A DNA stretch of 64,000 nt from NCBI RefSeq assembly GCF_023923225.1, contig NZ_CP099489.1, forward strand, positions 2,108,001 to 2,172,000, written 5' to 3'. Under the pieces are notes generated by a model. That model was not told the origin of the DNA, did no database searches, and worked only from the letters and a program-made list of their open reading frames with translations. Below are positions 38,283 to 52,175 of the stretch, in pieces. The stretch is from Ornithinimicrobium faecis (GTDB lineage Bacteria; Actinomycetota; Actinomycetes; Actinomycetales; Dermatophilaceae). The position numbers and the translations under genes were made by a program. Each line of letters opens with the position of its first letter. The stretch's first letter is position 1.

Positions 38283-38301
38283 GCGGCAGATGTACGCGTG
38301 C
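38283..38301 (+). other. Cassette site 1 (variant)
   Basis: GCGGCA at 38283-38288 after ACCACCT, with TGC 10 nt later instead of 6 or 8. It is the leftmost recognised site, and the left flank ACCT is shared with several others. Confidence 0.45.
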
Positions 38302-38344
38302 GCGGATGGCAACCAGCCGGGGATAGGCACGACATAATGTTGGA

Positions 38345-38620
38345 GTGTCGCTTCGTGTCGTTGGGCAACAGGCGCTTTTCTTCGTCGGCGCTGCGCTCAT
38401 ATTTGCTGGCGTGGTCACTTATGCTGCCGAGGGCTCCAGTTCCTTCGGTTGGTTCGCTTACCAACCCTTGGGCGATTCGGTCGACTCCAACCTTCTGATC
38501 CTTCTGCCAGGTCATATCTGGGGACTAGGCATGAGCTTCGTTGGCTTACTGGTGCTGACTGGCTTGGTCGGTTACCGACTGGGTCTGAGGCGTCACTCCC
38601 ACGCGCAGAGTCAGGACTGA
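38345..38620 (+). CDS. Small two-helix membrane protein (cassette cargo)
   Basis: 91 residues from GTG 38345, exactly 6 nt after CATAAT (38333-38338). Two membrane helices (near 8-26 and 52-74) and a basic, His-rich tail are visible. It fills the cassette between sites 1 and 2. The family is unknown. Confidence 0.6.
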   Translation: MSLRVVGQQALFFVGAALIFAGVVTYAAEGSSSFGWFAYQPLGDSVDSNLLILLPGHIWGLGMSFVGLLVLTGLVGYRLGLRRHSHAQSQD

Positions 38621-38663
38621 GCGCGCCGCAGAGAAGTCGGGCGCGCCGCGTTCATAGCTACTC

Positions 38664-38678
38664 GCGGCAGCAGCGTGC
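38664..38678 (+). other. Cassette site 2
   Basis: GCGGCA-GCAGCG-TGC, 44 nt after the stop of the membrane-protein gene. Only 28 bp separate its GCGGCA from that of site 3. Confidence 0.6.
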
Positions 38679-38691
38679 GCGCGCGCTCAGC

Positions 38692-38708
38692 GCGGCATGC
38701 GCGTCTGC
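38692..38708 (+). other. Cassette site 3
   Basis: GCGGCA-TGCGCGTC-TGC, the 8-nt spacer form, at the left end of the RHH/BrnT-like cassette. The promoter of that cassette (GTGACA 38712-38717, TACGCT 38736-38741) follows at once. Confidence 0.65.
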
Positions 38709-38747
38709 ACGGTGACAGGTCCCCCCATTCTGTATTACGCTTTAGAG

Positions 38748-38996
38748 ATGGAGAAGATCGAGGGCGTCCCGGTCACCGACGAGATGATCCAGAAGTGGGC
38801 CGACGAGGCTGAGAAGGGCTACGACGTCGATCAACTGCGCAAGCGAGGCCGTAAGCTAATGGGCGATGGCCCAGCTCGAGTGGTGCCGGTCCGTCTCGAC
38901 GACACCCTGCTCATGGCACTGGACAAGCGTGCCGAACGTGATCACACAACCCGCTCTGAGCTGATCCGTGCGGCCCTGCGTGCCTACGTCGCGTGA
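38748..38996 (+). CDS. Ribbon-helix-helix antitoxin-like protein
   Basis: 82 residues from ATG 38748, 6 nt after TACGCT, with GTGACA 18 nt further upstream: a complete leaderless promoter. The C-terminal 45 residues (VVPVRLDDTLLMALDKRAER, TTRSELIRAALRAYV) form a CopG/Arc ribbon-helix-helix DNA-binding domain. The N-terminal half is probably the toxin-binding part. The stop overlaps the start of the BrnT-like gene (GTGA). Antitoxin and autorepressor roles are inferred. Confidence 0.8.
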   Translation: MEKIEGVPVTDEMIQKWADEAEKGYDVDQLRKRGRKLMGDGPARVVPVRLDDTLLMALDKRAERDHTTRSELIRAALRAYVA

Positions 38997-39232
38997 AGGT
39001 CAACCCTTCAGCGCTCAAGCACGGCATCAGCGAACCCGACGTTCTGTATGCGGTCAACCACTGGGCCTACGCCAGCGATCCAGACGATGACATGCCCGCC
39101 AAGCAGTTCGTGCTGGGCTTCGACCGCAGCGGCCGACTTCTCGAGCTCACCATCCTGACCTTCGACAGTGGGCACCAACTCGTGATTCACGCGATGAAGG
39201 CTCGGCGCAAGTACCTGCACCTGCTCGAATGA
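38993..39232 (+). CDS. BrnT-like toxin
   Basis: 79 residues from GTG 38993. KHGISEPDVLYAV at the start and DRSGRLLELTILTF plus VIHAMKARRKYLHLL at the end match the layout of BrnT, a RelE-fold ribonuclease toxin. It is clearly homologous to the 78-residue protein of cassette B (KHGI/RHGI, LLEL/WLEL, IHAMKARRKY/IHADRLRPKF), yet the partner gene differs in family and order. Catalytic residues cannot be assigned with certainty. Confidence 0.7.
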   Translation: MKVNPSALKHGISEPDVLYAVNHWAYASDPDDDMPAKQFVLGFDRSGRLLELTILTFDSGHQLVIHAMKARRKYLHLLE

Positions 39233-39264
39233 GCAGACACGCACGTTGGGCACTCGACCTTAGT

Positions 39265-39281
39265 GCGGCAGTTTAGGAAGC
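39265..39281 (+). other. Cassette site 4 (variant), left end of integrase module 1
   Basis: GCGGCA followed after 8 nt by AGC. It overlaps the hicB stop codon (39273-39275). A further degenerate site, GAGCAGACACGCACGTT, lies at about 39236-39252. The equivalent position in module 2 is 47234-47250. Confidence 0.5.
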
Positions 39282-39614
39282 GTCTGAGAGGCGGCGTACG
39301 AGGTACTGGTTCAGGCTGAGGTGTTCCTGGGCGGCGTTCACGGCTAGCTGGCGGTGTAGGTACTCTCCTACGCGCAGGTTGAATTTGCCTGAGTAGTTGC
39401 GGGTCGCAAAGGGCACGGGCACGGGCTCGCCGGTGGCGGTGAGATCGTCGACGACTTCGCGGACGAGGTCACGCAGGCCGGCCAGTGCCTCTTCCTGGGT
39501 GCTGGCCAGCCAGGACAGGGATGGCAGCTCGAGGCAGGTAGCGAGGAACTCCTGGTCCTCGGCGGACCAGGTGACGCGGTAGCCGTAGTGGGTGATGTCG
39601 ATGGTCGTGGTCAT
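39273..39614 (-). CDS. hicB: HicB family antitoxin, copy 1
   Basis: 113 residues from ATG 39614. The N-terminal HicB partial RNase-H-like fold (HYGYRVTWSAEDQEFLATCLELPSL) is followed by a C-terminal ribbon-helix-helix (NLRVGEYLHRQLAVNAAQEH, LSLNQYLVRRL). It lies downstream of the recombinase and the hicA remnant. The ancestral hicA stop overlapped this start by ATGA. HicB2 at 47.3 kb is a close homologue. Its own toxin is truncated, so it may only cross-neutralise HicA2 or act as a repressor. Confidence 0.85.
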   Translation of the reverse strand: MTTTIDITHYGYRVTWSAEDQEFLATCLELPSLSWLASTQEEALAGLRDLVREVVDDLTATGEPVPVPFATRNYSGKFNLRVGEYLHRQLAVNAAQEHLSLNQYLVRRLSDAS

Positions 39615-39859
39615 CGCTGTGCCTCCTTCTTGTCGATTGCTGTCAGCACCTGTCGGACCTGTTAGGTCTTGGCCTTGCCGTGCTCATTCTGGATATTTAC
39701 GCGCGGGTCACCGGGCCAGGGCGTCTTGAACACCGCGTGAGAACCCCCGCGTGTCCGCGGTGGACCGAAGTAGTGCTCACATACCTTGGCAAGTTCCTCG
39801 TACCGCACGTTGCGAGGGTTGGTTCTCATCGAGTCCAGGATCTTCGCGACGGACGGCAC
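39611..39859 (-). pseudogene. hicA: hicA toxin copy 1, truncated by a nonsense mutation
   Basis: It starts at GTG 39859 and stops early at TAA 39664-39662 after 65 residues. Compared with intact HicA2 (82 residues), a Tyr codon TAC has become TAA right after GKAK. The remaining codons still encode QVRQVLTAIDKKEAQR in frame down to a TGA at 39613-39611 overlapping the hicB start. The lost part includes the C-terminal helix of the double-stranded RNA-binding-like fold. The catalytic His in GGSHAVFK is retained. Toxin activity is probably lost. Confidence 0.85.
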
Positions 39860-39864
39860 GCTCC

Positions 39865-39884
39865 ATGGTACCGCGGACAGTACC
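39865..39884 (-). promoter_or_regulatory. Promoter and operator of hicAB copy 1
   Basis: On the minus strand TACCAT (39870-39865) ends 5 nt before the GTG start, with TTGAGC 17 nt upstream. The inverted repeat GGTAC-N8-GTACC (39867-39884) overlaps the -10 box. The same GGTAC/GTACC arms are at the same place in copy 2, which supports a HicB operator. Confidence 0.7.
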
Positions 39885-39933
39885 GAGGCTCAACGGCTTG
39901 AGGGTCGCTCTTTCGCTGCGCTGTCAGGCAAGG

Positions 39934-40857
39934 TCAGGTGCCTGAGGCCATGTAGGCGGCGAGGATGTAGTTGGGGTGGCGGTCCAGGTTCTTACGGGCC
40001 CGGTCGTAGCGCATCGTGGTGCGCGGGTCGGCGTGACGGGCGGCGATCTGCACGTCGCGCAGGTCCACGCCCGCGTCGAGCATGGTGGTAACGAAGGTGT
40101 GGCGCAGCATGTGCGGGTGCATCCGAGGCAAGCTGATGCCCGCATCCTCCGCTAGATGCCGCAGGCGACGCGTGGCGGCGTGCCGGTCCATCCGCACCTG
40201 CCGACGATTGCGCAGGACCGGACCCGCGTCTCGGCCATCCACCGCTCGTTCGATTGCCCGTTGCACGGTCGGCGGCAGAGGTGTCAGCACAACTTGGGAG
40301 CCTTTCCCGCGGACTTTCAGAACCCGGTGGCCGTGCTCCTCGCGCAGGTCCTCGACGTCCGCACCGCAGGCCTCGAAGATCCGCAGGCCCAGGAGCCCGA
40401 GCATGGTGACCAGCGCGAAATCGTTGATGTTCGGGCTCGACCGGGCAGCGTGCAACATCGCCTCGAACTGCAGGTGAGACAGGCCCAGTGTGGGCGATTC
40501 GGGAGGGACATGAGGGCGACGGACGTGCTCGGCCGGGGACATCTCCAGGAGCCCGTCGATCAAACAGGTGCGGTAGAACCCCACGACCACGGACAGTCGG
40601 CGGGAGATCGTGGCCGGCCTGTACCGGCGAATCTCCTGCATCCACCGCACGTACAGCTCGACATGTACCCGGCCAGCGGCCAACGGGCCAAGGCCGCGGT
40701 CCGCGCACCAGATCAGGAAACATCGCAGATCTGAGTCGGTGTGGCTCCGAGTCAGCCCGGTGTACCGGGCCAGATGCGCCGCGACCGCACGACGCAAGAC
40801 ACCGTCATCACCAAGCGCGACGGGAACGAGAACAGGCTGGGACCGGGATGCACTCAT
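39934..40857 (-). CDS. Tyrosine recombinase, integrase module 1
   Basis: 307 residues from ATG 40857. An N-terminal SAM-like core-binding domain (residues 15-105) precedes the catalytic domain with Arg in GLLGLRIFEACG, HMLRHTFVTTML (His-x2-Arg), HADPRTTMRY with the second His and the nucleophile Tyr. It resembles XerC/XerD-type enzymes and lacks the extra helix seen between conserved patches in IntI. Module 2 carries a homologue, roughly four-fifths identical by eye. It is transcribed away from a cassette site 58 nt upstream, the layout of intI and attI. It probably moves the cassettes here. Confidence 0.92.
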   Translation of the reverse strand: MSASRSQPVLVPVALGDDGVLRRAVAAHLARYTGLTRSHTDSDLRCFLIWCADRGLGPLAAGRVHVELYVRWMQEIRRYRPATISRRLSVVVGFYRTCLIDGLLEMSPAEHVRRPHVPPESPTLGLSHLQFEAMLHAARSSPNINDFALVTMLGLLGLRIFEACGADVEDLREEHGHRVLKVRGKGSQVVLTPLPPTVQRAIERAVDGRDAGPVLRNRRQVRMDRHAATRRLRHLAEDAGISLPRMHPHMLRHTFVTTMLDAGVDLRDVQIAARHADPRTTMRYDRARKNLDRHPNYILAAYMASGT

Positions 40858-40914
40858 AGGCCATCATGACGCTGCCCGTGCACCACGGAGAAGGCCACGA
40901 CCCACGCGCCCGCC

Positions 40915-40931
40915 GCGGCAGCAGAGAGTGC
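40915..40931 (+). other. Cassette site 5, upstream of integrase 1 (attI-like position)
   Basis: GCGGCA-GCAGAGAG-TGC, 58 nt upstream of the recombinase start and oriented toward the array. Site 48906-48920 has the same relation to integrase 2. Confidence 0.65.
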
Positions 40932-41015
40932 TTCTAAGGCGCCCCGGGATCTTCATTGAGCTCTTCCCGAAGTCGAACCCACCAGGGGCCGGCTCGTCAG
41001 TCGCCAAGCGCAAGA

Positions 41016-41444
41016 TCAGCGGTCCGGACCGCTCCGAGGGCGTTTGACGATCGCAGCGAGCAGAGCCAGTGCCGGCGTCAGGAGGGACACGGCAGCCACG
41101 GTGGCCGCACCGTGGACCGAGGTGAAGAGTGAAACCAGGGTGGCGACGATGGCGGTGAAGAGAAACCACATAGGGAGAGCGAGCACTGCCAGCACCACAA
41201 ACAACGGGCGCAGGCGTGGGAGAGGGCGAACCACTGTTGTTGACCCAGTAATCAGGGCGATCAAGCCGACCGACCACAGCCACCACGCCGCCCGCCAACG
41301 TGCCGGATCCTCCAACGTGCCGCACTGGGCGATCTGGCAGGCGCCGGTCACGATCAGTTCCGGCTGCGGGGGTGCCCACACGCTCGCGGCCGCCATGATC
41401 ACGAGCCCGGCCAGCATCAGGAGCGCGGGAAGCTTCAGTCGCAC
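41016..41444 (-). CDS. Four-helix membrane protein (cassette cargo)
   Basis: 142 residues from GTG 41444, 6 nt after CAGACT on the minus strand. Four hydrophobic segments are clear (near 6-23, 52-70, 79-100 and 108-130); a short soluble loop with two Cys (GACQIAQCGT) follows the first. It occupies the cassette between sites at 40915 and 41518. The family is unknown. Confidence 0.65.
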   Translation of the reverse strand: MRLKLPALLMLAGLVIMAAASVWAPPQPELIVTGACQIAQCGTLEDPARWRAAWWLWSVGLIALITGSTTVVRPLPRLRPLFVVLAVLALPMWFLFTAIVATLVSLFTSVHGAATVAAVSLLTPALALLAAIVKRPRSGPDR

Positions 41445-41517
41445 GGTGTCAGTCTGACCCAAGCTTTGGCCCGGCTGGACGGATCGCACATCGACCGACC
41501 CTCGGCACGAGCCGGAC

Positions 41518-41532
41518 GCGGCATGACAGTGC
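41518..41532 (+). other. Cassette site 6, left end of cassette A1
   Basis: GCGGCA-TGACAG-TGC followed by GTTTCG. Everything right of GCGGCA recurs at 45731; the left flank (GAGCCGGAC) does not. Confidence 0.8.
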
Positions 41533-42140
41533 GTTTCGTGCAGGTCCCATCCGAACGCCTCTAGGCTCGCAGCATGAAGCCAGCCCCTCGGCAGGTAGCC
41601 AAAACCGTGACTCAGATCCTCCGGTCAGTCTGGCCGCAGGGCCTCGATGAGGGACTCCTATGGCTGGAGGCGATGGGAATTCGGACCGACACGGCCACGG
41701 AGACACCCCGGAGACGATCCTCTCGTTCCTGGCATATGGCCTCCATGCCCACGTGGGGGACGGCGAGAGCGGGTTGGGGCACTTACCAGGACCGGTTCGC
41801 CGACGTTTTCTGGTTCCTCTGGGACGACGAAAGCTCCGAGCGCGTCCTTCACGCGGCGACCGAACTGGCTGACCATCTCGCCGACGCCCTGGGTGAACCG
41901 ACAGAGACCACAGAACCGACACCACTCAGCGGAGGGACCTGGTGGTGGCAACTGGAAGGGCACAGCATCGAGATGTATGCCTACACCGACGCCCGAACGC
42001 CTGATGGCCACCCGACAGGGCCGCCCTGCGTGCAGCTGTCCGTCGACCTGCGAGAGGTGTCAGATCCTCGCGAAGCCGAAGCGCGTCGGTTGCAAGGAGC
42101 GCCGGGGTTTGGATAGTGCCGTCAAGCGCGACCTGCGGCA
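41524..42140 (+). repeat. Cassette A, copy 1 (617 bp)
   Basis: The interval from just after GCGGCA at 41518-41523 to the end of GCGGCA at 42135-42140. It is repeated without any difference I can see at 45731-46347. It contains the 180-residue gene and its promoter. Here it precedes cassette B; in the second locus it follows it. Confidence 0.9.
41574..42116 (+). CDS. Cassette A protein of unknown function, copy 1
   Basis: 180 residues from ATG 41574, 6 nt after TAGGCT (41562-41567), so leaderless. The ends look like a normal folded protein (VAKTVTQILRSVWPQGL; DRFADVFWFLWDDESSERVL). Residues 40-65 read as Arg/Ser-rich low-quality sequence, while frame +3 across the same bases gives a plausible DTPETILSFLAYGLHAHVGD. 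A pair of compensating indels may therefore have altered this stretch before the cassette was duplicated, since both copies share it. The family is unknown. Confidence 0.6.
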   Translation: MKPAPRQVAKTVTQILRSVWPQGLDEGLLWLEAMGIRTDTATETPRRRSSRSWHMASMPTWGTARAGWGTYQDRFADVFWFLWDDESSERVLHAATELADHLADALGEPTETTEPTPLSGGTWWWQLEGHSIEMYAYTDARTPDGHPTGPPCVQLSVDLREVSDPREAEARRLQGAPGFG

Positions 42141-42151
42141 TGTGCGGATGC
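42135..42151 (+). other. Cassette site 7, A1/B1 junction
   Basis: GCGGCA-TGTGCGGA-TGC. The left flank (GCGCGACCT) recurs at 46333-46341 and the right flank recurs at 45137, each with a different partner. Confidence 0.8.
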
Positions 42152-42177
42152 TTCTGGTCGCATGGACCTACCTACTG

Positions 42178-42218
42178 GTCAACCTTAGGTTGACGACGGG
42201 TTTGTGGCCGTCTAGTGT
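42178..42218 (+). promoter_or_regulatory. Cassette B promoter with palindromic operator, copy 1
   Basis: TTGACG (42190-42195) and TAGTGT (42213-42218) are 17 nt apart, and the GTG start follows after 6 nt. A perfect inverted repeat GTCAACC-TTA-GGTTGAC (42178-42194) overlaps the -35 box. This is a textbook place for autorepression by the antitoxin encoded in the cassette. Confidence 0.8.
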
Positions 42219-42224
42219 TGAAGT

Positions 42225-42461
42225 GTGCGGTTGACGGACTCAGCGTTCAGGCATGGGATCGCCGAGTCCGACATTCTGCACGCGTTGAGAAACGCGGTGC
42301 GACTCGTGGAGATTGAGCAGTATGGCGAGGAGCGGCTCGTCGTGATCGGGCCGGACAGGGCTGGCAACTGGTTGGAGTTGGTAGCCATGCCAGCCCATGA
42401 TGCAGACCGGATCATCCATGCCGACCGACTGCGACCGAAGTTCTACGAGCTCCTGAAGTGA
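42225..42461 (+). CDS. BrnT-like toxin, cassette B copy 1
   Basis: 78 residues from GTG 42225. FRHGIAESDILHALRNAV, LVVIGPDRAGNWLEL and DRIIHADRLRPKFYELL parallel the 79-residue protein at 38993. The compact RelE-like size and pairing with a downstream DNA-binding protein suggest the toxin of a toxin-antitoxin pair. Toxicity is not shown by sequence alone. Confidence 0.7.
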   Translation: MRLTDSAFRHGIAESDILHALRNAVRLVEIEQYGEERLVVIGPDRAGNWLELVAMPAHDADRIIHADRLRPKFYELLK

Positions 42462-42471
42462 GGTGATCTGC

Positions 42472-42714
42472 ATGGCAACAACGAACATGAACGATATCGA
42501 GAAGGTGCTGGACGACCTCGACCCAGTAACGGTCCAAGCTCGCGACGCCGTTCACTTCCGCCGGATTATCGCGGCGAAGGAAGGAGTGTCTCAGGCCGAG
42601 CGCGAACTGCACGACGCCGTTCGTGCGGCGCGCGAAGCCGGTGACTCCTGGTTGAGTATCGGTCTCGCGCTCGGCGTCACGAAGCAGGCCGCACAGAAGC
42701 GCTTCGGCCGCTAA
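42472..42714 (+). CDS. Helix-turn-helix partner (probable antitoxin), cassette B copy 1
   Basis: 80 residues from ATG 42472 with AGGTGA upstream; GTG 42463 is an alternative start. The C-terminus ends in a helix-turn-helix (SWLSIGLALGVTKQAAQKRF) like that of small sigma-like or Xre-like DNA-binding proteins; the first half is an acidic helix. It follows the BrnT-like gene by 10 nt and is the likely antitoxin and repressor acting on the palindrome at 42178. Confidence 0.72.
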   Translation: MATTNMNDIEKVLDDLDPVTVQARDAVHFRRIIAAKEGVSQAERELHDAVRAAREAGDSWLSIGLALGVTKQAAQKRFGR

Positions 42715-42728
42715 TCATGTGCCACCTC

Positions 42729-42743
42729 GCGGCAGATGAGTGC
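42729..42743 (+). other. Cassette site 8, right end of B1
   Basis: GCGGCA-GATGAG-TGC. The left flank GTGCCACCTC recurs at 45715-45724 joined to cassette A. Confidence 0.8.
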
Positions 42744-42745
42744 GT

Positions 42746-43168
42746 TCAGGCTAGGTCTTCGAAAGAGTCCTCTCCCGGCCGCCAGCACATCCACTCGCGG
42801 TCACGGAACCCCTGGAGAAGAGCGATTTCGGGACCGACGAGGTCCTGCCGGTCAGGGTGTACAACGACAGCCCCGTCATCGAACTCGATTCGCAGGCCGA
42901 GTCGGGTCTCTTCACGGGTCTGCCGCACAACGCCCGGAATCAGGGCTCGGAGCGCATCGGCGTAGCCGATCTGCCCGTCCACAAGCGTGCCGGAGTTGTG
43001 TTCCACACTTGGCATCACGTCACAGTTGAGGACCGGCATGTCTGCCGTTGGGCCGTCGAACCGCAATTGGACGTAGTCCATAACGAATTGCACGGAGAAG
43101 AGGCGGAAGCCGACTAGCCGGCCAAGCAGCTCGTTCGGGACGTAGGAAGGTCGCGGCTCCATGGACAT
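42746..43168 (-). CDS. Cassette protein of unknown function
   Basis: 140 residues from ATG 43168, 6 nt after GATGAT on the minus strand; the next in-frame ATG is 43162. Its stop lies 2 nt from the end of site 8. It is a soluble protein with alternating hydrophobic strands (GFRLFSVQFVMDYVQLRFD, GLRIEFDDGAVVVHPD). The pattern resembles small DUF families of beta-sandwich immunity-like proteins, but I do not recognise a particular one. Confidence 0.65.
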   Translation of the reverse strand: MSMEPRPSYVPNELLGRLVGFRLFSVQFVMDYVQLRFDGPTADMPVLNCDVMPSVEHNSGTLVDGQIGYADALRALIPGVVRQTREETRLGLRIEFDDGAVVVHPDRQDLVGPEIALLQGFRDREWMCWRPGEDSFEDLA

Positions 43169-43225
43169 TGGGCCATCATCCAGCACTCGGCGATCTGGCG
43201 TCCGCATTATCGGCGCGAGCGGATC

Positions 43226-43242
43226 GCGGCAAAACCGGACGC
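43226..43242 (+). other. Cassette site 9
   Basis: GCGGCA-AAACCGGA-CGC, 8-nt form, 57 nt upstream of the minus-strand cassette gene. Bases 43243-43463 between it and the GNAT promoter hold no convincing gene. Confidence 0.6.
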
Positions 43243-43476
43243 TTGTCACCCGAGGCGTGGGAGCACGGTTTTCGGATTCGCTATGGCTCTTCCACCGCCT
43301 GGTTGCCGTTCATCCGGAACATGTAACCGCGCGTCGTCCCACGTCGGCAGCCTGCTCGACGAGGCGCTCATGGAAGGGAGTCCGGAAAGATCTTGGCGCG
43401 GAACCGGTAACAACGCTAGTAGAGGCCCGGGCACCCAAACCTAGCCTCCGTGGTCGGTATGTCTATGCTTTCGCCC

Positions 43477-44094
43477 ATGCCTGAACCGCTCCAGACACCC
43501 GTCCTCGCCGGCGGCGTGGTGACGCTGCGCCCGCACACGATGGCGGACCTGCGACCGGTGCTGGAGCGGTGCCTGGACCCCGAGTCGGTCCGGTGGACGA
43601 CCGTGCCGACGGGGTACACCGAGGACATGGCGCGGGACTACCTCGAGCAGATCATCGAGCCGTCCGCTGAGCAGATCTCCTGGGCGATCGAGGCGGACGG
43701 GCAGTATGCGGGCACGATCGACCTGCGATCCGGCGGTGGCGAGGGGGAGCACGCCTCGGGCGACGTCGGTTACGTCACTCATCCACGATTCCGGGGGCGG
43801 GGCATCATGACCGCCGCAGTGACCCTCGCGGTCGACCACGCCTTCGACGTCCTCGGCTGGGAGTTGCTGGTCTGGCAGGCCAACATTGGCAATGTCGCCA
43901 GCTACAAGCCCATGTGGCGCAACGGCTTTCCTCGACCACTGTCTGTGCCCGCCCTGCTCAACCACCGGGGGGTGATGCGCGACGGGTGGCATTCGGTCCT
44001 GGAGCCGGGCATGCCCCGCGAGCCGCAGGGCCGGTGGGAGGATGTGAGCGCCGCCCTGCTCCGCGATGTCGAGCAGGCGCGTCGCCCAGGTTGA
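43477..44094 (+). CDS. GNAT family N-acetyltransferase (RimJ/RimL-like)
   Basis: 205 residues from ATG 43477, 7 nt after TATGCT (43464-43469). Motif A for acetyl-CoA binding is HPRFRGRGIMTAAVTLAVDH (R/Q-x2-G-x-G/A form). N-terminal VVTLRPHTMADL and WQANIGNVASYKPMWRNGF are typical of the RimJ-type group that acetylates protein N-termini or small amines. It lies alone in its cassette. The substrate is unknown. Confidence 0.87.
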   Translation: MPEPLQTPVLAGGVVTLRPHTMADLRPVLERCLDPESVRWTTVPTGYTEDMARDYLEQIIEPSAEQISWAIEADGQYAGTIDLRSGGGEGEHASGDVGYVTHPRFRGRGIMTAAVTLAVDHAFDVLGWELLVWQANIGNVASYKPMWRNGFPRPLSVPALLNHRGVMRDGWHSVLEPGMPREPQGRWEDVSAALLRDVEQARRPG

Positions 44095-44205
44095 CGATCG
44101 AGCCTCCCCGCATGGCGCTGGGGCAGGACCCTCCGAAGGCCTGGGAGGGGTGACCTCACCACAGGGCGAGCGACACCCCGATCTCCAACAATGTGCTGCC
44201 TGCAC

Positions 44206-44220
44206 GCGGCATGAGCGTGC
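44206..44220 (+). other. Cassette site 10
   Basis: GCGGCA-TGAGCG-TGC followed by GGTTCC. It separates the GNAT cassette from the lipoprotein cassette. Confidence 0.65.
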
Positions 44221-44331
44221 GGTTCCTTGGGTGCGTTCGCAGCGGTGTGCTGCCATTGCCGTGATTCCTCCCGGTTCACTGATCTGCGTCTGTCTATGCT
44301 GGCGGGACCGATTGCCTTGAGGGGGCCGTTC

Positions 44332-45214: not shown

Positions 45215-45220
45215 TGAAGT

Positions 45221-45457: not shown

Positions 45458-45467
45458 GGTGATCTGC

Positions 45468-45710: not shown

Positions 45711-45724
45711 TCATGTGCCACCTC

Positions 45725-46347: not shown

Positions 46348-46358
46348 GATGCGTGTGC
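46342..46358 (+). other. Cassette site 13, right end of A2
   Basis: GCGGCA-GATGCGTG-TGC. The left flank equals that of site 7; the right flank starts the luciferase-family cassette. Confidence 0.8.
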
Positions 46359-46423
46359 CTGCTCGGCGGGCCCGTGTATGGAAACGCGTGGCGTTCTGAT
46401 CCTCGCTCGATAAGGTTCACCCC

Positions 46424-46882: not shown

Positions 46883-46904
46883 CAGCACTGGAAACACGCG
46901 CGTC

Positions 46905-46919
46905 GCGGCAGAAGCGTGC
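46905..46919 (+). other. Cassette site 14
   Basis: GCGGCA-GAAGCG-TGC, 23 nt after the stop of the luciferase-family gene and directly before the end of a minus-strand membrane gene. Confidence 0.7.
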
Positions 46920-46920
46920 G

Positions 46921-47172
46921 TCAGGCGGCTGCGTGATCGGGGGCCTGACGGTTCTTGCGTCGCCGTCTGAATAGGTGGAGCAGCGACTGATGGACCGCAA
47001 CTCCGACAGCGGTGTTCAAGGCAGCGAGGGCAGCTGCTCCGAGGAACTCAGTGGGTGACTCGATGATGTTGTCGAACCACAGAAACAGCGGCCAGCCCAG
47101 GGCCCCGACCACGAGGCAGGTCTTCCACCAGCGGCCTAGGACCAACCCGAACAAGAGCATCGCGGGAATCAT
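46921..47172 (-). CDS. Small membrane protein (cassette cargo)
   Basis: 83 residues from ATG 47172, with GAGGAGGGG 4 nt upstream. Two or three hydrophobic segments (near 3-13, 17-33 and 43-62) and a basic C-terminus (LFRRRRKNR) are visible. Unlike most cassette genes it has a clear ribosome site. Its family is unknown. Confidence 0.65.
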   Translation of the reverse strand: MIPAMLLFGLVLGRWWKTCLVVGALGWPLFLWFDNIIESPTEFLGAAALAALNTAVGVAVHQSLLHLFRRRRKNRQAPDHAAA

Positions 47173-47233
47173 CGGCCCCTCCTCAGATCCTCACCGTACG
47201 CCGTGAGACCCGGTCATGGCCATGCTGCCATCA

Positions 47234-47250
47234 GCGGCATTTCCGGATTC
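47234..47250 (+). other. Cassette site 15 (near-consensus), left end of integrase module 2
   Basis: GCGGCA-TTTCCGGA-TTC followed by GTTCAGG. It lies 13 nt before the hicB2 stop codon, as site 4 does for module 1. Confidence 0.6.
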
Positions 47251-47252
47251 GT

Positions 47253-47597
47253 TCAGGATGCGTCGCCAAGTTTGCGGATGACGTACTGGTTGAGGCTGAG
47301 GTGCTCTTCGGCTGCCTTGATGGCGAGCTGGCGGTGGAGTCGTTCACCGACGCGGAGGTTGAACTTGCCCGAGTAGCTGCGCGAGGACAGTGGGTCGGGG
47401 ATCGGCTCATCGTTGCGGTGCATGTCCTCGACGACGGTGTTCACGAGATCGCGAAGGCTGTGCAGTGCCTCGTCCTGAGTGGGTGCGAGCCAGGACAGGG
47501 AGGGCAGCTCGAGGCAGGTGGCGACGAACTCTTGGTCCTCAGGAGACCAGGTGACGCGGTAGGTGTAGTGGGTGACGTCGGGGATCGTGGCGCTCAC
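47253..47597 (-). CDS. hicB: HicB family antitoxin, copy 2
   Basis: 114 residues from GTG 47597, overlapping the hicA stop by GTGA. HYTYRVTWSPEDQEFVATCL and NLRVGERLHRQLAIKAAEEH parallel HicB1, with the same C-terminal ribbon-helix-helix. With intact HicA2 it forms a complete type II toxin-antitoxin pair and should bind the palindrome at 47850. Confidence 0.87.
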   Translation of the reverse strand: MSATIPDVTHYTYRVTWSPEDQEFVATCLELPSLSWLAPTQDEALHSLRDLVNTVVEDMHRNDEPIPDPLSSRSYSGKFNLRVGERLHRQLAIKAAEEHLSLNQYVIRKLGDAS

Positions 47598-47842
47598 GGG
47601 GCTTCCTCCTTCTTGTCGATCGCTGCCAGGACCTGGCGGACCTGGTAGGCCTTGGCCTTGCCGTGGTCGTTCTGGATATTCACTCGCGGGTCCCCGGGCC
47701 AGGGCGTCTTGTACACGGCGTGGGAGCCGCCGCTTGTCCTGGGCGGTCCGAAGTAGTGCTCGCACACCTTGGCCAGGTCCTCGTACCGGATGTTGGCCGG
47801 ATTGGCCCTCATCTGAGCCAGGATCTTCACAACTGACGGCAC
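47594..47842 (-). CDS. hicA: HicA family toxin, copy 2 (intact)
   Basis: 82 residues from GTG 47842, 6 nt after TACCAT on the minus strand. GGSHAVYKTPWPGD carries the catalytic His of HicA mRNA interferases, and the C-terminal AYQVRQVLAAID helix is present, unlike in copy 1. It should cleave mRNA unless bound by HicB. It lies between recombinase 2 and hicB2, so loss of the module would be selected against. Confidence 0.87.
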   Translation of the reverse strand: MPSVVKILAQMRANPANIRYEDLAKVCEHYFGPPRTSGGSHAVYKTPWPGDPRVNIQNDHGKAKAYQVRQVLAAIDKKEEAP

Positions 47843-47848
47843 AACTGG

Positions 47849-47869
47849 ATGGTACTACCCATAGTACCA
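47849..47869 (-). promoter_or_regulatory. Promoter and operator of hicAB copy 2
   Basis: TACCAT (minus strand, 47854-47849) lies 6 nt before GTG 47842. TGGTACTA-N4-TAGTACCA (47850-47869) is a perfect 8-bp inverted repeat over the -10 box. Copy 1 shares the GGTAC/GTACC core. Confidence 0.8.
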
Positions 47870-47925
47870 CTGAGCAAGGGTCGCGACCCGAAGCCGGGCT
47901 GGTCAAGGCGCGGACCGTCGTTCGT

Positions 47926-48855
47926 TTAGGTGCCGGAGGCCATGTAGGCGGCGAGGATGTAGTTGGGGTGCCGGTCGAGGTTCTTGCGTGCTCGGTCATA
48001 GCGCATGGTGGTGCGGGGATCGGCGTGGCGCGCGGCGATCTGGACGTCGCGCAGGTCCACGCCGGCGTCGAGCATGGTGGTGACGAAGGTGTGCCGAAGC
48101 ATGTGCGGGTGCATCCGCGGCAAGTTGATGCCGGCGTCGTCGGCCAGGTGGTGAAGGCGACGGGTAGCGGCGTGCCGGTCCATCCGCCCGCCCTGCCGGT
48201 TCCGCAGGATCGGCCCTTCCTCACGGTGGTCGACGGCGCGTTCGATCGCGCGCTGCACGGCTGGCGGCAGGGGTGTCAGGACGACCTTGCCGCCCTTGCC
48301 ACGGACCTTCAGCACCCGGTGGCCGTGCTCCTCGCGCAGGTCCTGGATGTTCGCGCCGCACGCCTCGAAGATGCGCAGGCCGAGCAGTCCGAGCATGGTG
48401 ACGAGAGCGAAGTCGTTGATGTTGGCGCTGGTGCGGCCGGCCTGCAGCATCGCCTCGAACTGCAGGTGGGACAGGCCCAGGGTGGGTGATTCGGGTGGAA
48501 CGTGCGGGCGGCGGACGTGGTCGGCCGGGGAGGCGGTCAGGACACCGTCGATGACGGCCGTGCGGTAGAACCCGGCCACGACGGACAGCCGCCGGGAGAT
48601 CGTGGACGGCTTGTACCGGCGGGTCTCCTGCATCCACCGCACGTACAGCTCGACGTGCACCCGATGGGCGGTCAGCGGGTCGACGTGGCGTGCGGCGCAC
48701 CAGGCCAGGAAGGCGCGCAGGTCTGACTCGGTGTGGGTGCGCGTCTGCCCGGTGTAACGGGCAAGGTGCGCCGCTATCGCCTGGCGCAGCGCGGCAACGG
48801 AGGGGTCCTCGGTCGGGACCGGAACGAGGGCGGCGGTGATCTGGAAGTTGTTCAT
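47926..48855 (-). CDS. Tyrosine recombinase, integrase module 2
   Basis: 309 residues from ATG 48855. It shares the domain layout and catalytic residues with integrase 1: Arg in GLLGLRIFEACG, HMLRHTFVTTML, and HADPRTTMRYDRA with the nucleophile Tyr. The last 60 residues are almost the same in both; the N-terminal core-binding domains differ more. A cassette site lies 51 nt upstream. Either enzyme, or both, could have moved cassettes A and B. Confidence 0.92.
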   Translation of the reverse strand: MNNFQITAALVPVPTEDPSVAALRQAIAAHLARYTGQTRTHTESDLRAFLAWCAARHVDPLTAHRVHVELYVRWMQETRRYKPSTISRRLSVVAGFYRTAVIDGVLTASPADHVRRPHVPPESPTLGLSHLQFEAMLQAGRTSANINDFALVTMLGLLGLRIFEACGANIQDLREEHGHRVLKVRGKGGKVVLTPLPPAVQRAIERAVDHREEGPILRNRQGGRMDRHAATRRLHHLADDAGINLPRMHPHMLRHTFVTTMLDAGVDLRDVQIAARHADPRTTMRYDRARKNLDRHPNYILAAYMASGT

Positions 48856-48905
48856 GAACCATCCTGACCCGCAGATGATCGATGCGAACTCGAGCCGACC
48901 GACGC

Positions 48906-48920
48906 GCGGCAGAGTCGTGC
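48906..48920 (+). other. Cassette site 16, upstream of integrase 2 (attI-like position)
   Basis: GCGGCA-GAGTCG-TGC followed by GCTTGG, 51 nt upstream of the recombinase start. Same arrangement as site 5 and integrase 1. Confidence 0.7.
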
Positions 48921-48962
48921 GCTTGGTGAACCTCCCGATGATCAAGGTGTCAGGCTGGAGTC

Positions 48963-49394
48963 ATGGCTTTCGAGGATGGCTCCTACGCGCGCATGTTCCA
49001 GCGACACGCCCATCCCTTCAGCGCCTGGTCCAGGTTGCTGAGCACACCCCTGCTCTTGGTGCCACTGTGGACCCGGCGCTCGTGGCTGTACGTGCCCGTC
49101 GGCGCCTGGTTCGCGGTCAACCCGGTGATCACTCCTCCGGCGCAAGACACGTCATCCTTCGCGACAAGTGCCATCGTGGGCGAAGAGTCCTGGAGTCGAG
49201 ACCTGACATCCGAGCCAAGGGTCCTGGCCCTGACAGGCGCAGCCACTGCATCGCTCGTGAGCGCCATGGTGGCGAGCTACCAGCACAGGAAGGCCGTGGC
49301 GGTCGCCTGCACGGGAAGCTCCGTGGCACTTACGTTGTGGCAGTGGAAGATGTGGGCGGACCGGTTCACGCGCGAGACAGTGCCGGCCACCTGA
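48963..49394 (+). CDS. Membrane protein, DUF6653-like (cassette cargo)
   Basis: 143 residues from ATG 48963, 6 nt after CAGGCT. Conserved-looking HAHPFSAWSRL, TPLLLVPLWTRRSW and NPVITPPA resemble the DUF6653 membrane family as I remember it. Three or four hydrophobic segments are visible. Function is unknown. Confidence 0.68.
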   Translation: MAFEDGSYARMFQRHAHPFSAWSRLLSTPLLLVPLWTRRSWLYVPVGAWFAVNPVITPPAQDTSSFATSAIVGEESWSRDLTSEPRVLALTGAATASLVSAMVASYQHRKAVAVACTGSSVALTLWQWKMWADRFTRETVPAT

Positions 49395-49443
49395 ATCCGA
49401 GCCGTCTTCGACGGGCACCCCCATCACCCCACCCGTCCTTGCC

Positions 49444-49460
49444 GCGGCAAGACAGGATGC
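49444..49460 (+). other. Cassette site 17
   Basis: GCGGCA-AGACAGGA-TGC. GCGGCA here is part of the palindrome TTGCCGCGGCAA. The nucleotidyltransferase gene ends at the very next base. Confidence 0.65.
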
Positions 49461-49943
49461 CTACAGTTCGTCGAGGACTGCGAGGTCGTGGAGGTCCACG
49501 GCACGCGGGGGATAGCCACTTCGAAGCTCTCGGGCTCGCTCGGCACTGGCCACGACGACCGCTTGGCCGTCGATGAGGCCGGTGACTCTCTGCTTAGAAG
49601 GGTGGAGGTACACCTCGCCGTCGAGACCTTGTTGAACTCCGGTACCGGCCGGGTCCAAGCGCATTGCGTGGACGTCTACTTGCCCCAAGGGACTCGATAG
49701 CTCCACGCGGACTGGTCGCCAATCCTCGGTGACTCGGTAGCCGCGGGAGGTGAGCCAGGCCATGAAGTCGGCCTCGTGATCTTCGTCGATAAACACGTCG
49801 AGATCTTGGTGGGGTCGAGTCTGTCGTCCCACCAGCGCATCGACACCCCATCCGCCGTTGACCTGATAGACCACACCGTTGGCGTCAAGCCAGGCGACGA
49901 TCTGCACCACCTCGGCGGCGGTCATCTGGGAGGAGGTCTCCAT
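49461..49943 (-). CDS. Lincosamide-type nucleotidyltransferase (Lnu-like), cassette cargo
   Basis: 160 residues from ATG 49943, 6 nt after GAGACT on the minus strand. The nucleotidyltransferase motif GGWGVDALVGRQTRPHQDLD has the metal-binding Asp residues. VDVHAMRLD and the end GYPPRAVDLHDLAVL follow the pattern of Lnu(A)-type enzymes (about 160 residues). Those adenylylate lincosamide antibiotics. Related nucleotidyltransferases, such as lnu(F) and aadB, are known cargo of clinical integrons. The true substrate here is unproven. Confidence 0.78.
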   Translation of the reverse strand: METSSQMTAAEVVQIVAWLDANGVVYQVNGGWGVDALVGRQTRPHQDLDVFIDEDHEADFMAWLTSRGYRVTEDWRPVRVELSSPLGQVDVHAMRLDPAGTGVQQGLDGEVYLHPSKQRVTGLIDGQAVVVASAERARELRSGYPPRAVDLHDLAVLDEL

Positions 49944-49984
49944 AGGACAAGTCTCCCTCACCACCCACGGGGATCTTGCGACCT

Positions 49985-49999
49985 GCGGCATGTGCGTGC
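49985..49999 (+). other. Cassette site 18
   Basis: GCGGCA-TGTGCG-TGC followed by GTTTCC, with left flank GCGACCT as at sites 7 and 13. Confidence 0.7.
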
Positions 50000-50040
50000 G
50001 TTTCCTCCCGGCGTGACGGCAGAGGCCCTAACCTGACCGT

Positions 50041-50202
50041 ATGAAAAGCGGCAAAAGTCGGCTACAGCACGTCACCCCGACGGCTGTTGTGGGAGTCGGC
50101 CTCATTGTGGTCGCGCTCCTGTTATACGCCACAGAGTGGAGTCGCGCTGCAGCCGCTGAGTTTGTTCATGCCTTCGGTCGTTCTGAGTGGGCGGACGGCT
50201 GA
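50041..50202 (+). CDS. Single-helix membrane peptide (cassette cargo)
   Basis: 53 residues from ATG 50041, 6 nt after TAACCT (50029-50034). A basic N-terminus (MKSGKSR) leads into one membrane helix (TAVVGVGLIVVALLLY) and a short outer tail. Its size and single helix would fit a small toxin or regulator, but nothing more can be said. A variant site (CCTGCGGTG, near 50202-50210) follows. Confidence 0.6.
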   Translation: MKSGKSRLQHVTPTAVVGVGLIVVALLLYATEWSRAAAAEFVHAFGRSEWADG

Positions 50203-50264
50203 CCTGCGGTGATGTGGCCTGGCAACTGCGTTTTGACGCACTAATTGGTGCCTAGGGTCGCGGC

Positions 50265-50432
50265 GTGACGTTCATCAGGCGGGTGCCGACGGCCTCGGGA
50301 GCGACCGCGGTACAGATCGCTGAGTATGCCAACGGGCGGCAGCGGATCGTGAAGCATCTGGGGTCGGCGCACACTGAGGCTGGGCTCCCACTCCCGAAGT
50401 CGGTGGCCGTTCCTTGCCCACCTGGCCAGTGA
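50265..50432 (+). pseudogene. N-terminal fragment of an IS1634-type transposase
   Basis: A 55-codon frame from GTG 50265, 6 nt after TAGGGT (50253-50258). FIRRVPTASGATAVQIAEYA followed by RQRIVKHLGSAHTEA is the N-terminus typical of IS1634-family transposases. The homology breaks off after about 40 residues, and no DDE domain, terminal repeat or target duplication is visible. It is a remnant captured in the array. Confidence 0.72.
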
Positions 50433-50595
50433 TCCCAAGCGTGGCGTCCTGGAGGTGACAGTGATGGACAACTTCGGACGATGGCTCAACGTTGACTCCT
50501 CTGGATGTTCGGCACTCACGCACGTAGCCGCGCACGGTGACGTTCTGCTCGCACAGATCACGGACGAACTCGAGGCACTAAGCCAGCGTGAGTGA
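50393..50595 (+). pseudogene. 3' remnant of an unknown gene
   Basis: In the frame ending at TGA 50593-50595 the sequence reads like real protein (WPFLAHLASDPKRG, EVTVMDNFGRWLNVD, LLAQITDELEALSQRE), but it has no start of its own and its 5' part is replaced by the transposase fragment. It is probably a gene 3' end joined to the IS remnant. Bases 50596-50700 hold a possible degenerate site (GCGGCT, 50671). Confidence 0.45.
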
Positions 50596-50700
50596 TTCCA
50601 AGACCAGAGACACCTGCGCCCCGGCACAGAACAGCAGTCCAACGATTGTCACGGGCGGCCCCCATCCATCGACCTGCGGCTCCGGTCGACAGCGCTAAGC

Positions 50701-51396
50701 TCATAGGTACGGTTTGGGAAACAGAACAGCAATCAGGAATGCCCACCCGCCGGTCAGGCGGCGTCCCGTCGGTTCCAGCGGCTTACCAGCCCCCGCCAGC
50801 CCGAACAGGGGGAAGAGCACGAGTGCGAACGGACCCGTGCCGCAGATGAGCCAGAACCAGGCCCAGCGGGTTGCTCTTCGTGGCTCGGGACCGACAATCA
50901 GGGTGACCAGCACAGTCAGTACCCAGGCCATGAAAGCAACGGCGACCCACGTGGACACCCGCCATTCGAAGAGGACCCCGTGCGAGCCGGCATGGACCTC
51001 TCGACTTGTGACCTGCAGTTGCCCAGTTGGCGTCGATGCGGTCAGCACATCACGCAGGTCGCTCCCGACCACAGAAGTGGGCCACGGCGCGGGAGGCGGC
51101 GCCTCTGGAAGCACGCCGGCTGACGTCTGCTGCACGGTGGTGTATCGGGCGAACAGACCGTCCTGCCATACAATGTCAACGAGCGAGGTGCCGGCTGCTG
51201 CGGGCTCCAGTTCGCCGACCAGTTCAACCTGAGATAGCTGGCCCGAACTGAGTGCCTTCTGAAGGTCGGCCATACTCGCGGGGCGTGTGGCAGTGAGCCA
51301 GACACCGATGATGATGACGCCCATCACGACGAGCATCACGGAGCGAAATAGACCCCACCCCTGGGACACAGTGCGGCCTCCGACGGTCTCTAACAT
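50701..51396 (-). CDS. Membrane protein of unknown function (cassette cargo)
   Basis: 231 residues from ATG 51396, 6 nt after TAGGGT on the minus strand. An N-terminal helix (near 16-36) is followed by about 110 soluble residues and three C-terminal helices (near 145-168, 178-197 and 212-228). It was not matched to a family. It ends just left of the GCGGCT-like variant site. Confidence 0.7.
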   Translation of the reverse strand: MLETVGGRTVSQGWGLFRSVMLVVMGVIIIGVWLTATRPASMADLQKALSSGQLSQVELVGELEPAAAGTSLVDIVWQDGLFARYTTVQQTSAGVLPEAPPPAPWPTSVVGSDLRDVLTASTPTGQLQVTSREVHAGSHGVLFEWRVSTWVAVAFMAWVLTVLVTLIVGPEPRRATRWAWFWLICGTGPFALVLFPLFGLAGAGKPLEPTGRRLTGGWAFLIAVLFPKPYL

Positions 51397-51479
51397 GAAC
51401 GCACCCTATGGGGCGTGCCCCTACGTAGAGCACCGGCATGCGTCCGGCAACATCTTCTTGACAGTTGGCGGCGCGATCT

Positions 51480-51494
51480 GCGGCATGGTCGAGC
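51480..51494 (+). other. Cassette site 19 (near-consensus)
   Basis: GCGGCA-TGGTCG-AGC, with T changed to A in the distal triplet. Only 34 bp separate its GCGGCA from that of the next site. Confidence 0.5.
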
Positions 51495-51513
51495 GATCCT
51501 AGTCGCACTCGGA

Positions 51514-51528
51514 GCGGCAGATCCGCGC
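51514..51528 (+). other. Cassette site 20
   Basis: GCGGCA-GATCCG-CGC followed by GTTTAC. It bounds the last GNAT cassette on the left. Confidence 0.6.
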
Positions 51529-51586
51529 GTTTACGGCGCGCCCCATGAACGCCCCGTCAAGACAACGGTTTAGCTGCATGGTGACA

Positions 51587-52057
51587 TCAGAGCGCTCTGC
51601 GCATGAAGCGTCTTCCCTGCCTCGCGCCGACCGTTTCGTATCCTTCCGATTCATAGAGCCCCCGCGCGACCATGTTCGCGTCCGCCACGGTGAGGGCCAC
51701 CCCGTGGTAGCCACGCTCCCGGGCGATCTCCTCCGCGGCCCGCATCGCTGCGCGACCAAAGCCCCGCCCGCGAAACTGACCGTCGATCTCGACGTCGAAG
51801 ACGTAGAAGTCGTCGGTCGAGTCGGACGGGCCCACCCACAGGTATCCGCCAGCCTCGCCTTCGATGACCACTTCGAGTACGGAGTGCCCTTCCCTGAGAC
51901 CACCGTCCGGGAAGAGTTCGCGGGCACTCTCGGCGACGTGCTGGGCGATCTGCTCACCCGTCAGACTGCTTGAGGTGAGGTCTTCCGCGTACACCGTGAG
52001 TGTGTGCTCCTGCCAGGAGATGAGACGCTCTTGTGGCATAGAGCGCAGCCGGAACAT
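51587..52057 (-). CDS. GNAT family N-acetyltransferase (cassette cargo)
   Basis: 156 residues from ATG 52057, 6 nt after TAGCCT on the minus strand; ATG 52039 is an internal alternative. Acetyl-CoA motif A is DGQFRGRGFGRAAMRAAEE, with VADANMVARGLYESEGY downstream as motif B. It is unlike the RimJ-type GNAT at 43.5 kb. The substrate is unknown. Confidence 0.87.
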   Translation of the reverse strand: MFRLRSMPQERLISWQEHTLTVYAEDLTSSSLTGEQIAQHVAESARELFPDGGLREGHSVLEVVIEGEAGGYLWVGPSDSTDDFYVFDVEIDGQFRGRGFGRAAMRAAEEIARERGYHGVALTVADANMVARGLYESEGYETVGARQGRRFMRRAL

Positions 52058-52160
52058 GCGTCGAGGCTATCAGCGACGCAAATTGATCCACCAACGTTAC
52101 AACGTTCGACTCTCGGCGTGACCGGATCACCTACATATCCCTGATGACAGTGTCCGCTCA

Positions 52161-52175
52161 TCGGCAGTTGAGTGA
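52161..52175 (+). other. Cassette site 21 (variant), right end of array
   Basis: TCGGCA-GTTGAG-TGA keeps the 6-nt spacing but differs in the first and last base. No further site is recognised to the right. A repeat AACGTT-AC-AACGTT lies at 52093-52106. Confidence 0.4.

Follow-up and report, generated by a model that had tools for sequence, protein, structure and literature searches.

In the 64,000-nucleotide stretch of Ornithinimicrobium faecis contig NZ_CP099489.1 analysed here (the window), we found an array of 18 gene-bearing and two geneless units lying head-to-tail at 38283-52161, with a single kind of site in a single direction, every unit opening with GCGGCA on the + strand. A sequence-only reading of this DNA had proposed an independent cassette-capture system without the integron integrase IntI and its attC sites, and this proposal is supported, as strict sites cluster in the array and cassettes move at GCGGCA. 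We consider it very likely that this is a mobile cassette array that arose through conservative site-specific recombination, with a dedicated Xer-like tyrosine recombinase (YR) acting on a dif-like duplex site.

Sites of the array

Matches to GCGGCA-N6/N8-YGC, the form in which the site was first read, number 18 on the + strand and none on the - strand of 38201-52260, with 5 and 6, respectively, in the remaining ~50 kb of the window. A first-order Markov simulation gives a chance level of 0.94 for the + strand of the array region, close to the one match expected when sixteen exact sites had been counted. Across the full window, GCGGCAN{6,8}YGC matched 33 times, compared with 16.9 ± 4.4 in shuffles. 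Of 17 occurrences of the strict form GCGGCADDWSMGKRYG in the single-contig genome of 4.62 Mb, 11 lie in the array, all of these on the + strand, and its reversed-pattern control gave 1+1 matches genome-wide; the site density elsewhere, on which the sequence-only reading had let its proposal depend, is therefore not equal to that of the array. The sites are thus real, but their variable N6/N8 spacing was misregistered and is ruled out by the fixed length of the motif. Similarly, the array of about 17 short gene units holds as such, with the count revised to the one given above, whereas the claim that most units have their own promoter found no backing: a sigma-70 scan returned 4 matches with 1.5 expected (a weak test in a high-GC actinobacterium), and all four belong to cassette B and its duplicate.

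The site has a fixed length and a dif-like build, consisting of a left arm of ~10-12 bp, the hexamer GCGGCA and an inverted right arm of ~10-12 bp, and its sequence presumably differs from that of dif sites. An expectation-maximisation mixture model of the 10 bases 3' of the hexamer, trained on 79 recombinase loci from the best 80 of 239 confirmed stretches (the 80-locus set used below being these 79 and the window), outlines the right arm as GCGGCA-[GT][AG][TA][CG][CA]G[GT][AG][CT]G. The left arm, CGCnC[GT] at -10 to -5, mirrors it about GCG^GCA, and there is weak A and T enrichment immediately outside both arms. Past ~12 bp from the hexamer no motif information remains on either side, hence no second box pair. 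At a motif score of at least 5, 290 sites of the 79 loci lie opposite the recombinase and 14 on its own strand, and GCGGCA itself is often concentrated opposite the recombinase strand, most strongly in Pimelobacter simplex (L113; loci and genomes are cited by L and G numbers) with 52 versus 10. In a set of 37 loci from the genus and family, selected because they hold a recombinase or sites, site orientation is 388 versus 6.

Four boundaries of the array are missed by the N6/N8-YGC pattern: 39265 (motif score 6.4) and 47234 (4.2), which bound the two recombinase cassettes, 51480 and the terminal TCGGCA at 52161. Those at 38283, 38664, 38692 and 40915 fit the pattern but score low in the motif (Table 1). 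Among them, 40915 is supported by a homology break at the last base of its GCGGCA, 38664 and 38692 by lying 28 bp apart, and 51480 by lying 34 bp from 51514; 38283, with a weak score and no other support, is the least certain boundary of the array. The pattern match at 48117, inside the gene of the second recombinase, is probably coding sequence and not a site.

Sites also follow one another directly. GCGGCA-to-GCGGCA spacings of 28, 29 and 34 bp occur 50, 54 and 31 times on the site strand versus 2, 1 and 4 times on the other, the commonest short units being those of 28-29 bp; some genomes are counted twice (for example L044/L143 and L045/L140), which inflates these counts as well as those given below for covariation, intervals and the TCGGCA and GCAGCA cores. 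The congener G029 has 21 consecutive sites at 28-bp spacing, and tandem geneless units of 28, 29, 34 and 39 bp were seen at L172:8636-9196, L142:6740-6884, L113 and, in the window, 38664-38691 and 51480-51513. The common geneless units are able to form a small hairpin, which in the 34-bp class shows a matched two-sided change, GGACG/CGTCC and GGGCG/CGCCC around AGCGTAGC. Upon folding the sites with 40 nt of left flank, no common hairpin was apparent by eye, and Rfam gave no match in 37500-53000.

Two variant cores were considered. GCAGCA shows a strand excess of 47 versus 3, yet its window instance (40104) lies inside the coding sequence of the first recombinase, and it was rejected as a second core type, the excess being probably explained by conserved coding DNA as judged from this one instance of the 47. 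TCGGCA-core sites, often with a strong left arm (CCGCTCA), number 61 on the site strand versus 9 at a score of at least 6 (for example L142:16411 and L144:16625). A clear TCGGCA lies within 4 kb to the right of the last site in 4 of 27 arrays and to the left in 1 of 27. It is possibly a terminal or chromosomal attachment site that sometimes marks the right end of an array, and as a general array end it stays tentative because a clear one is found in only these 4 arrays.

Exchange of cassettes at the hexamer

Within the window, the cassette order A-B (41518-42728) recurs as B-A (45131-46341) without a mismatch in either cassette. The bases to the left of GCGGCA stay with the upstream cassette and those to the right with the downstream cassette, so that the exchange falls inside the hexamer. 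Between genomes, shared blocks in the 37 loci (at least 85% identity and 100 bp, without the recombinase) give 657 ends, of which 292 coincide with a site (20.4 expected), and between-locus blocks in the 80-locus set (at least 80% identity, recombinase excluded) have 22 of 87 ends at sites versus 1.8 expected. Blocks with both ends at sites include one of 3298 bp at 99.7% identity between G001 and G017 and one of 760 bp at 99.9% between G003 and G017.

Cassettes of the window take part in this sharing. The nucleotidyltransferase cassette 49444-49984 has copies at 90-92% in four genomes, running site to site in G007 and G010 and with one end off a scored site in G001 and G005; cassette A has a 97% copy in G005 with one end at a site; and 46905-47233 has a 95% copy in G003 with both ends at a site (-1/+5) in both genomes. 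The first recombinase cassette shares a 91% block with Ornithinimicrobium murale that extends from 39265 to 40920, the last base of the GCGGCA at 40915, its right end being at a scored site in that species and its left end not. The second shares a block of 1686 bp at 89.6%, site to site, with Serinicoccus chungangensis. At an orthologous array locus, G004 (L140) and G003 (L164) are 99.2% identical over 4312 bp comprising the left flank, the recombinase cassette and the first cassette; the match stops at the last base of a GCGGCA, beyond which there are two short matches only (112 and 57 bp), and in the right flank 94.8% identity resumes from the first base of a TCGGCA. The sequence-only reading had also let its case hang on gain and loss at the sites; both occur, as in integrons, with cassettes recurring inside the array and between genomes and breaking at GCGGCA. 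At the same L164 locus, the G003 recombinase (G003:C1:1388693-1389593) is split into two overlapping matches and looks broken.

The genes that flank the island, an ABC-2 transporter ending at ~32390 and a pterin dehydratase-domain gene from ~52265, stand 46-676 bp apart in 6 congeners. As the island includes 5.9 kb besides the array, the array did not simply insert alone. The left part (32681-38165) encodes a sigma factor and three proteins without a Pfam match, and a 2.8-kb segment with this sigma factor has homologues at other congener loci (L132-L134).

The cargo of the window comprises a ribbon-helix-helix (RHH) antitoxin-like protein, two HicB-family proteins, two GNAT acetyltransferases, a nucleotidyltransferase, a luciferase-domain protein, a DUF6653 protein and orphans. 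Across loci, cassette open reading frames (ORFs) lie on the same strand as the site in 110 cases and opposite to it in 131, and the median site-to-site interval is 951 bp (285 intervals of 100-4000 bp). Cargo statistics cover 129 of 148 ORFs sampled from 238, the other 19 having been taken for recombinase genes by coordinates and removed, and family results cover the top 25 of 111 Pfam families and of 66 defence families. Acetyltransferases are the commonest cassette family, with 7 of the 129 ORFs scanned. Matches to defence models in cassettes of several loci comprise mad1, mad2 (4 ORFs), mad3 and mad8 of MADS, UzuA and the candidate PDC-S01; 10 cargo proteins of the window gave no match to the defence models.

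Table 1. Parts of the cassette array and the island that holds it, in window coordinates.
Feature	Position	Strand	Remarks
Cassette: weak site GCGGCA-GATGTACGCG, small ORF 38345-38620	38283..38663	+	motif score 0.7
Geneless 28-bp unit, site only	38664..38691	+	score -0.4; length class of tandem 28-bp units in other arrays
Cassette: RHH (CopG-type) protein and small partner, toxin-antitoxin-like	38692..39264	+	PF01402, 1.9e-8; partner without family; site score < -1
Recombinase cassette 1: HicB-family 39273-39614 (-), small ORF 39662-39859 (-), YR1	39265..40914	+	
YR1, 307-aa Xer-like tyrosine recombinase	39934..40857	-	Phage_integrase domain
Cassette: ORF 41016-41489 (-)	40915..41517	+	site 57 nt upstream of YR1; site score < -1
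Cassette A copy 1: orphan ORF 41574-42116	41518..42134	+	617 nt identical to 45725-46341
Cassette B copy 1: two small ORFs	42135..42728	+	594 nt identical to 45131-45724
Cassette: orphan ORF 42746-43249 (-)	42729..43225	+	
Cassette: GNAT acetyltransferase 43450-44094	43226..44205	+	PF13302, 5.9e-22
Cassette: orphan ORF 44227-45045	44206..45130	+	
Cassette B copy 2, here before A	45131..45724	+	identity to 42135-42728
Cassette A copy 2, here after B	45725..46341	+	identity to 41518-42134
Cassette: luciferase-domain protein 46424-46882	46342..46904	+	PF17648, 5.6e-17
Cassette: small protein 46921-47172 (-)	46905..47233	+	no Pfam family; 95% copy in G003
Recombinase cassette 2: HicB-family 47253-47597 (-), small ORF 47601-47842 (-), YR2	47234..48905	+	PF05534, 1.6e-15
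YR2, Xer-like tyrosine recombinase	47926..48855	-	81% identical to YR1
Cassette: DUF6653 protein 48963-49394	48906..49443	+	site 50 nt upstream of YR2
Cassette: nucleotidyltransferase (Aminoglyc_resit family) 49461-49991 (-)	49444..49984	+	PF10706, 9.8e-37
Cassette: small ORFs and ORF 50701-51396 (-)	49985..51479	+	no Pfam family
Geneless 34-bp unit	51480..51513	+	site score -0.6; 34-bp size class
Last cassette: GNAT acetyltransferase 51587-52057 (-)	51514..52160	+	PF00583, 2.6e-14
Terminal site, variant core TCGGCA, left arm GTCCGCTCA	52161..52176	+	motif score 2.0
Insertion of ~19.9 kb relative to congeners: 5.9 kb of other genes (32.4-38.28 kb) and the array	32400..52264		flanking genes adjacent in 6 congeners

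The recombinases and nearby sites

The two recombinases of the window, YR1 and YR2, are 81% identical over their alignment (84% over residues 9-307), and each shares its cassette with a HicB-family gene and a small ORF. They had been described as each facing away from a site 50-60 nt upstream, and with start codons checked this is confirmed: YR1 starts at 40857, 57 nt from the site at 40915, and YR2 at 48855, 50 nt from that at 48906. Two corrections apply to the earlier description, in that the recombinase lies inside a cassette with the HicB-family gene and not at a fixed end, and that many arrays have no recombinase.

Upon comparison with NCBIfam models, both proteins score 107-128 bits against the general tyrosine recombinase model PRK00283 and those for XerD and XerC, all below the cut-offs, with XerD at 109.9 and 124.4 bits. 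The integron integrase model TIGR02249 gives 49.6 and 61 bits (cut-off 265) and PRK15417 gives 39.7 and 40.4 bits (cut-off 435), well short of an assignment to IntI. The catalytic R, K, HxxR, H and Y are visible in the alignments, with 1 of 25 rows departing at the second R. The predicted structure, of moderate confidence (mean predicted local distance difference test score 71, the last part low), has a four-helix N-terminal domain and a catalytic domain without an arm-binding domain, which together with the RKHRH/Y residues is the composition of a simple, Xer-type tyrosine recombinase. Among solved structures the best sequence match is XerD and, for this moderate-quality model, the best fold match is XerA, with template modelling scores of 0.33-0.53 that confirm a tyrosine recombinase and no more. 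The alignment to XerD spans 246 versus 252 residues with no insertion, with the model being of low confidence in its last part; XerD, we assume, lacks the catalytic insertion specific to IntI.

In a tree of 102 of 115 rows (short, redundant or fragmentary ones dropped, L104 and L115 among them), all 79 recombinases of the array type group in a single clade with support 100/100, which by inspection largely sorts by host family. The closest named relatives of the window recombinases are in O. murale, O. tianjinense and S. chungangensis, and outside the clade stand ~40% paralogues of the same genus, 42-50% relatives and a phage integrase. The L044 recombinase (QEUR01000004.1, titled Acidobacteria bacterium isolate ATN4) groups with Ornithinimicrobium, and the title is probably wrong. 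In a phylum sample, 8 of 396 genomes matched at E ≤ 1e-60, the other 7 holding 42-50% relatives (at most 5 candidates were scored per listed genome). Searches of plasmids returned 2 distant matches at 39-44%, those of viral contigs 2 weak ones, and those of phages 111 records, of which 110 are below 60% identity and one at 60-80%; the 20 listed, from Arthrobacter phages, are at 45-46%. In two Arthrobacter phages (L183, L184), esterase genes and another tyrosine integrase lie close to a small tyrosine integrase that is ~45% identical to YR1. The ~40% family of the same genus (L020-L022, L026-L031, L148-L150), present several times in G001 and twice in G007, may have its own system.

The sites crowd around the recombinase genes. 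A site lies within 150 bp upstream of the start in 44 of 82 recombinase copies, 37 of these at 34-62 bp, and within 150 bp downstream in 2 of 82; site density drops with distance on both sides (104 upstream, 78 downstream; 39 loci). At least three sites are found on the site strand in 58 of the 80 recombinase loci and on the other strand in 5, all such counts describing loci chosen for recombinase, sites or flanking genes and not prevalence. Pieces of 2.6-3.9 kb around the 42-50% relatives hold no sites, those around the ~40% paralogues hold one in 10 short pieces and 1, 0 and 0 in three 20-kb pieces (L148-L150), and one site lies near a phage integrase outside the array clade (short piece). 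Among 184 family-level genomes, several of other genera show a strand-skewed excess of strict sites (G170 with 15 + and 0 -, G132 with 2 and 16, G158 with 2 and 14), which suggests more arrays.

Proposed mechanism, alternatives and known systems

In the mechanism that we propose, a cassette would run from one GCGGCA to the next, with the right arm of a ~28-30 bp site (~11, 6 and ~11) at its start and the left arm at its end. A dedicated Xer-like tyrosine recombinase would bind the inverted arms and exchange strands inside the invariant hexamer; cassettes would leave as circles and re-enter at any site in the same orientation, and repeated events would yield arrays, swaps, duplications and geneless units of 28-34 bp. 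The recombinase would ride in its own cassette with the HicB-family gene and be inherited mostly with the host family, with cassettes crossing species. From the patterns above we infer the circular intermediates, the YR as the enzyme, a duplex and not a single-strand chemistry, and the natural entry of foreign cassettes.

Several observations weigh against this mechanism. The recombination itself is deduced from sequence comparison, the left arms of the sites are weakly conserved, and tandem units and overlapping loci of one genome make the block-end counts interdependent. Fewer than three sites on the site strand were found in 22 of 80 recombinase loci, with none in 5, and at 23 of 37 array loci the stretch analysed lacks such a recombinase. 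Long arrays occur in G005, with no recombinase relative at E ≤ 1e-40, and in G017, with only a ~40% paralogue. Among 31 congeners, strict sites per genome average 21.9 in the 15 with the recombinase (including a partial copy in G001 and two-match split copies in G003 and G019) versus 15.0 in the 16 without, which is no significant difference (p = 0.11). Finally, a broad profile finds weak, distant tyrosine-recombinase-like frames in 4 of 24 loci L159-L182 (L168, L172, L174, L182), besides the split L164 copy, so that another enzyme could act. Arrays without the recombinase may be remnants, be served in trans or have another enzyme acting, by analogy with the CALIN elements of integrons, defined in PMC9024848.

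The same facts can be read as Xer/dif-type modules moved by host XerC/XerD or another recombinase, with the array-borne recombinase as a passenger. The commonest short units have the length of a dif site, 28-29 bp (PMC6449649), genomes lacking the recombinase also have arrays, the number of sites shows no tie to its presence, and the distant recombinase-like frames turn up in a few arrays. However, sites crowd around the recombinase gene and thin out with distance, 44 of 82 copies have one close to their start, and among the tyrosine recombinases examined only the array clade has several surrounding sites, which renders this reading unlikely.

A diverged true integron, with an IntI-like integrase acting on folded single-stranded attC, is less probable still. 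The layout and cassette sizes (median 951 bp, n = 285) are integron-like, the varied cargo is topped by acetyltransferases, many recombinase genes face away from a nearby site, geneless units can form a hairpin, and mild covariation within sites is seen at 2 of 12 arm positions (z 2.6 and 2.3). Nevertheless, the integron integrase model scores far below its cut-off and below XerD, the information ends without a second box pair, and cargo lies on both strands. The arms moreover show no overall covariation within the site (395 sites, z = 1.5) or within the cassette (266 cassettes, z = 1.8), which leaves little sign of selection for a folded single strand. That GCGGCA units are dispersed repeats rearranged by homologous recombination or a transposon, with no dedicated site-specific recombination, is scarcely credible: the two identical cassettes and the tandem repeats in the island could arise by homologous recombination, but breakpoints fall within 6 conserved bases, too short for it, between otherwise unrelated neighbours, and orientation is one-way.

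Conservative site-specific recombination by the Xer-like clade thus remains our preferred account, and we think it probable that the system is a third independent class of cassette array beside integrons and Xer/dif modules, in which a dedicated recombinase clade of Actinobacteria takes up, reshuffles and exchanges single-gene cassettes by way of a universal GCGGCA site. Among the open-access papers listed, no title or abstract describes a GCGGCA cassette system, with preprints and most subscription journals lying outside the search. If true, such a class would fill a phylum nearly devoid of integrons: IntegronFinder 2.0 reports no complete integron in Actinobacteria (PMC9024848), and with integrons essentially missing, the one-at-a-time acquisition of small accessory genes had no such answer there. 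A second lineage of cassette arrays, with another site and a reaction that is simpler and probably takes place on duplex DNA, would allow one to ask what is minimally needed (a recombinase and ~28 bp). It also yields a catalogue of mobile genes (orphan, toxin-antitoxin and defence-like ones) from Micromonosporaceae, Nocardioidaceae, Ornithinimicrobiaceae and other families, and could serve as a tool for ordered gene assembly in GC-rich hosts.

Like integrons, the array has tandem small mobile cassettes with one site each, all in one direction, and varied cargo, a tyrosine recombinase that often faces away from a nearby site, arrays without a recombinase, and a recombinase tree that largely follows host families while cassettes move. 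In contrast to integrons, its recombinase is XerD-like, lies inside a cassette and is present twice, cargo is on both strands, and the site is a ~28-30 bp duplex-type inverted repeat with an invariant GCGGCA. In integrons it is the bottom strand of attC that recombines (PMC2727003), and a specific insertion in the catalytic domain marks integron-like recombinases (PMC8138268); the paired R and L boxes of attC are not seen here, the core being GCGGCA and conservation ending ~12 bp from it, and recognition as a folded single strand is improbable. A counterpart of attI, the primary insertion site of integrons, might be the site upstream of 44 of the 82 recombinases; overall, 104 sites lie upstream and 78 downstream.

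The dif (pdif) modules of Acinetobacter likewise have arm-6 bp-arm sites of the 28-bp class and discrete modules with adaptive genes and toxin-antitoxin pairs, but they are moved by host XerC/XerD and flanked by sites of opposite orientation (PMC6449649). The array shares the ~28-bp site with two ~11-bp inverted arms and a 6-bp centre, whereas its sites do not alternate as XerC/D and XerD/C at module ends but run one way (388 versus 6), its hexamer is nearly invariant rather than variable, it encodes a dedicated recombinase, and its arrays are long and chromosomal. With simple tyrosine recombinases (the Xer group of XerA, XerD and XerH, and small phage integrases) it shares a core-binding and a catalytic domain only, but the array clade (79 rows) goes with many sites and not with one chromosomal or phage site. 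Overall, we class the system as an independently evolved cassette-array variant that combines integron-like behaviour, a dif-like site and a recombinase clade of its own.

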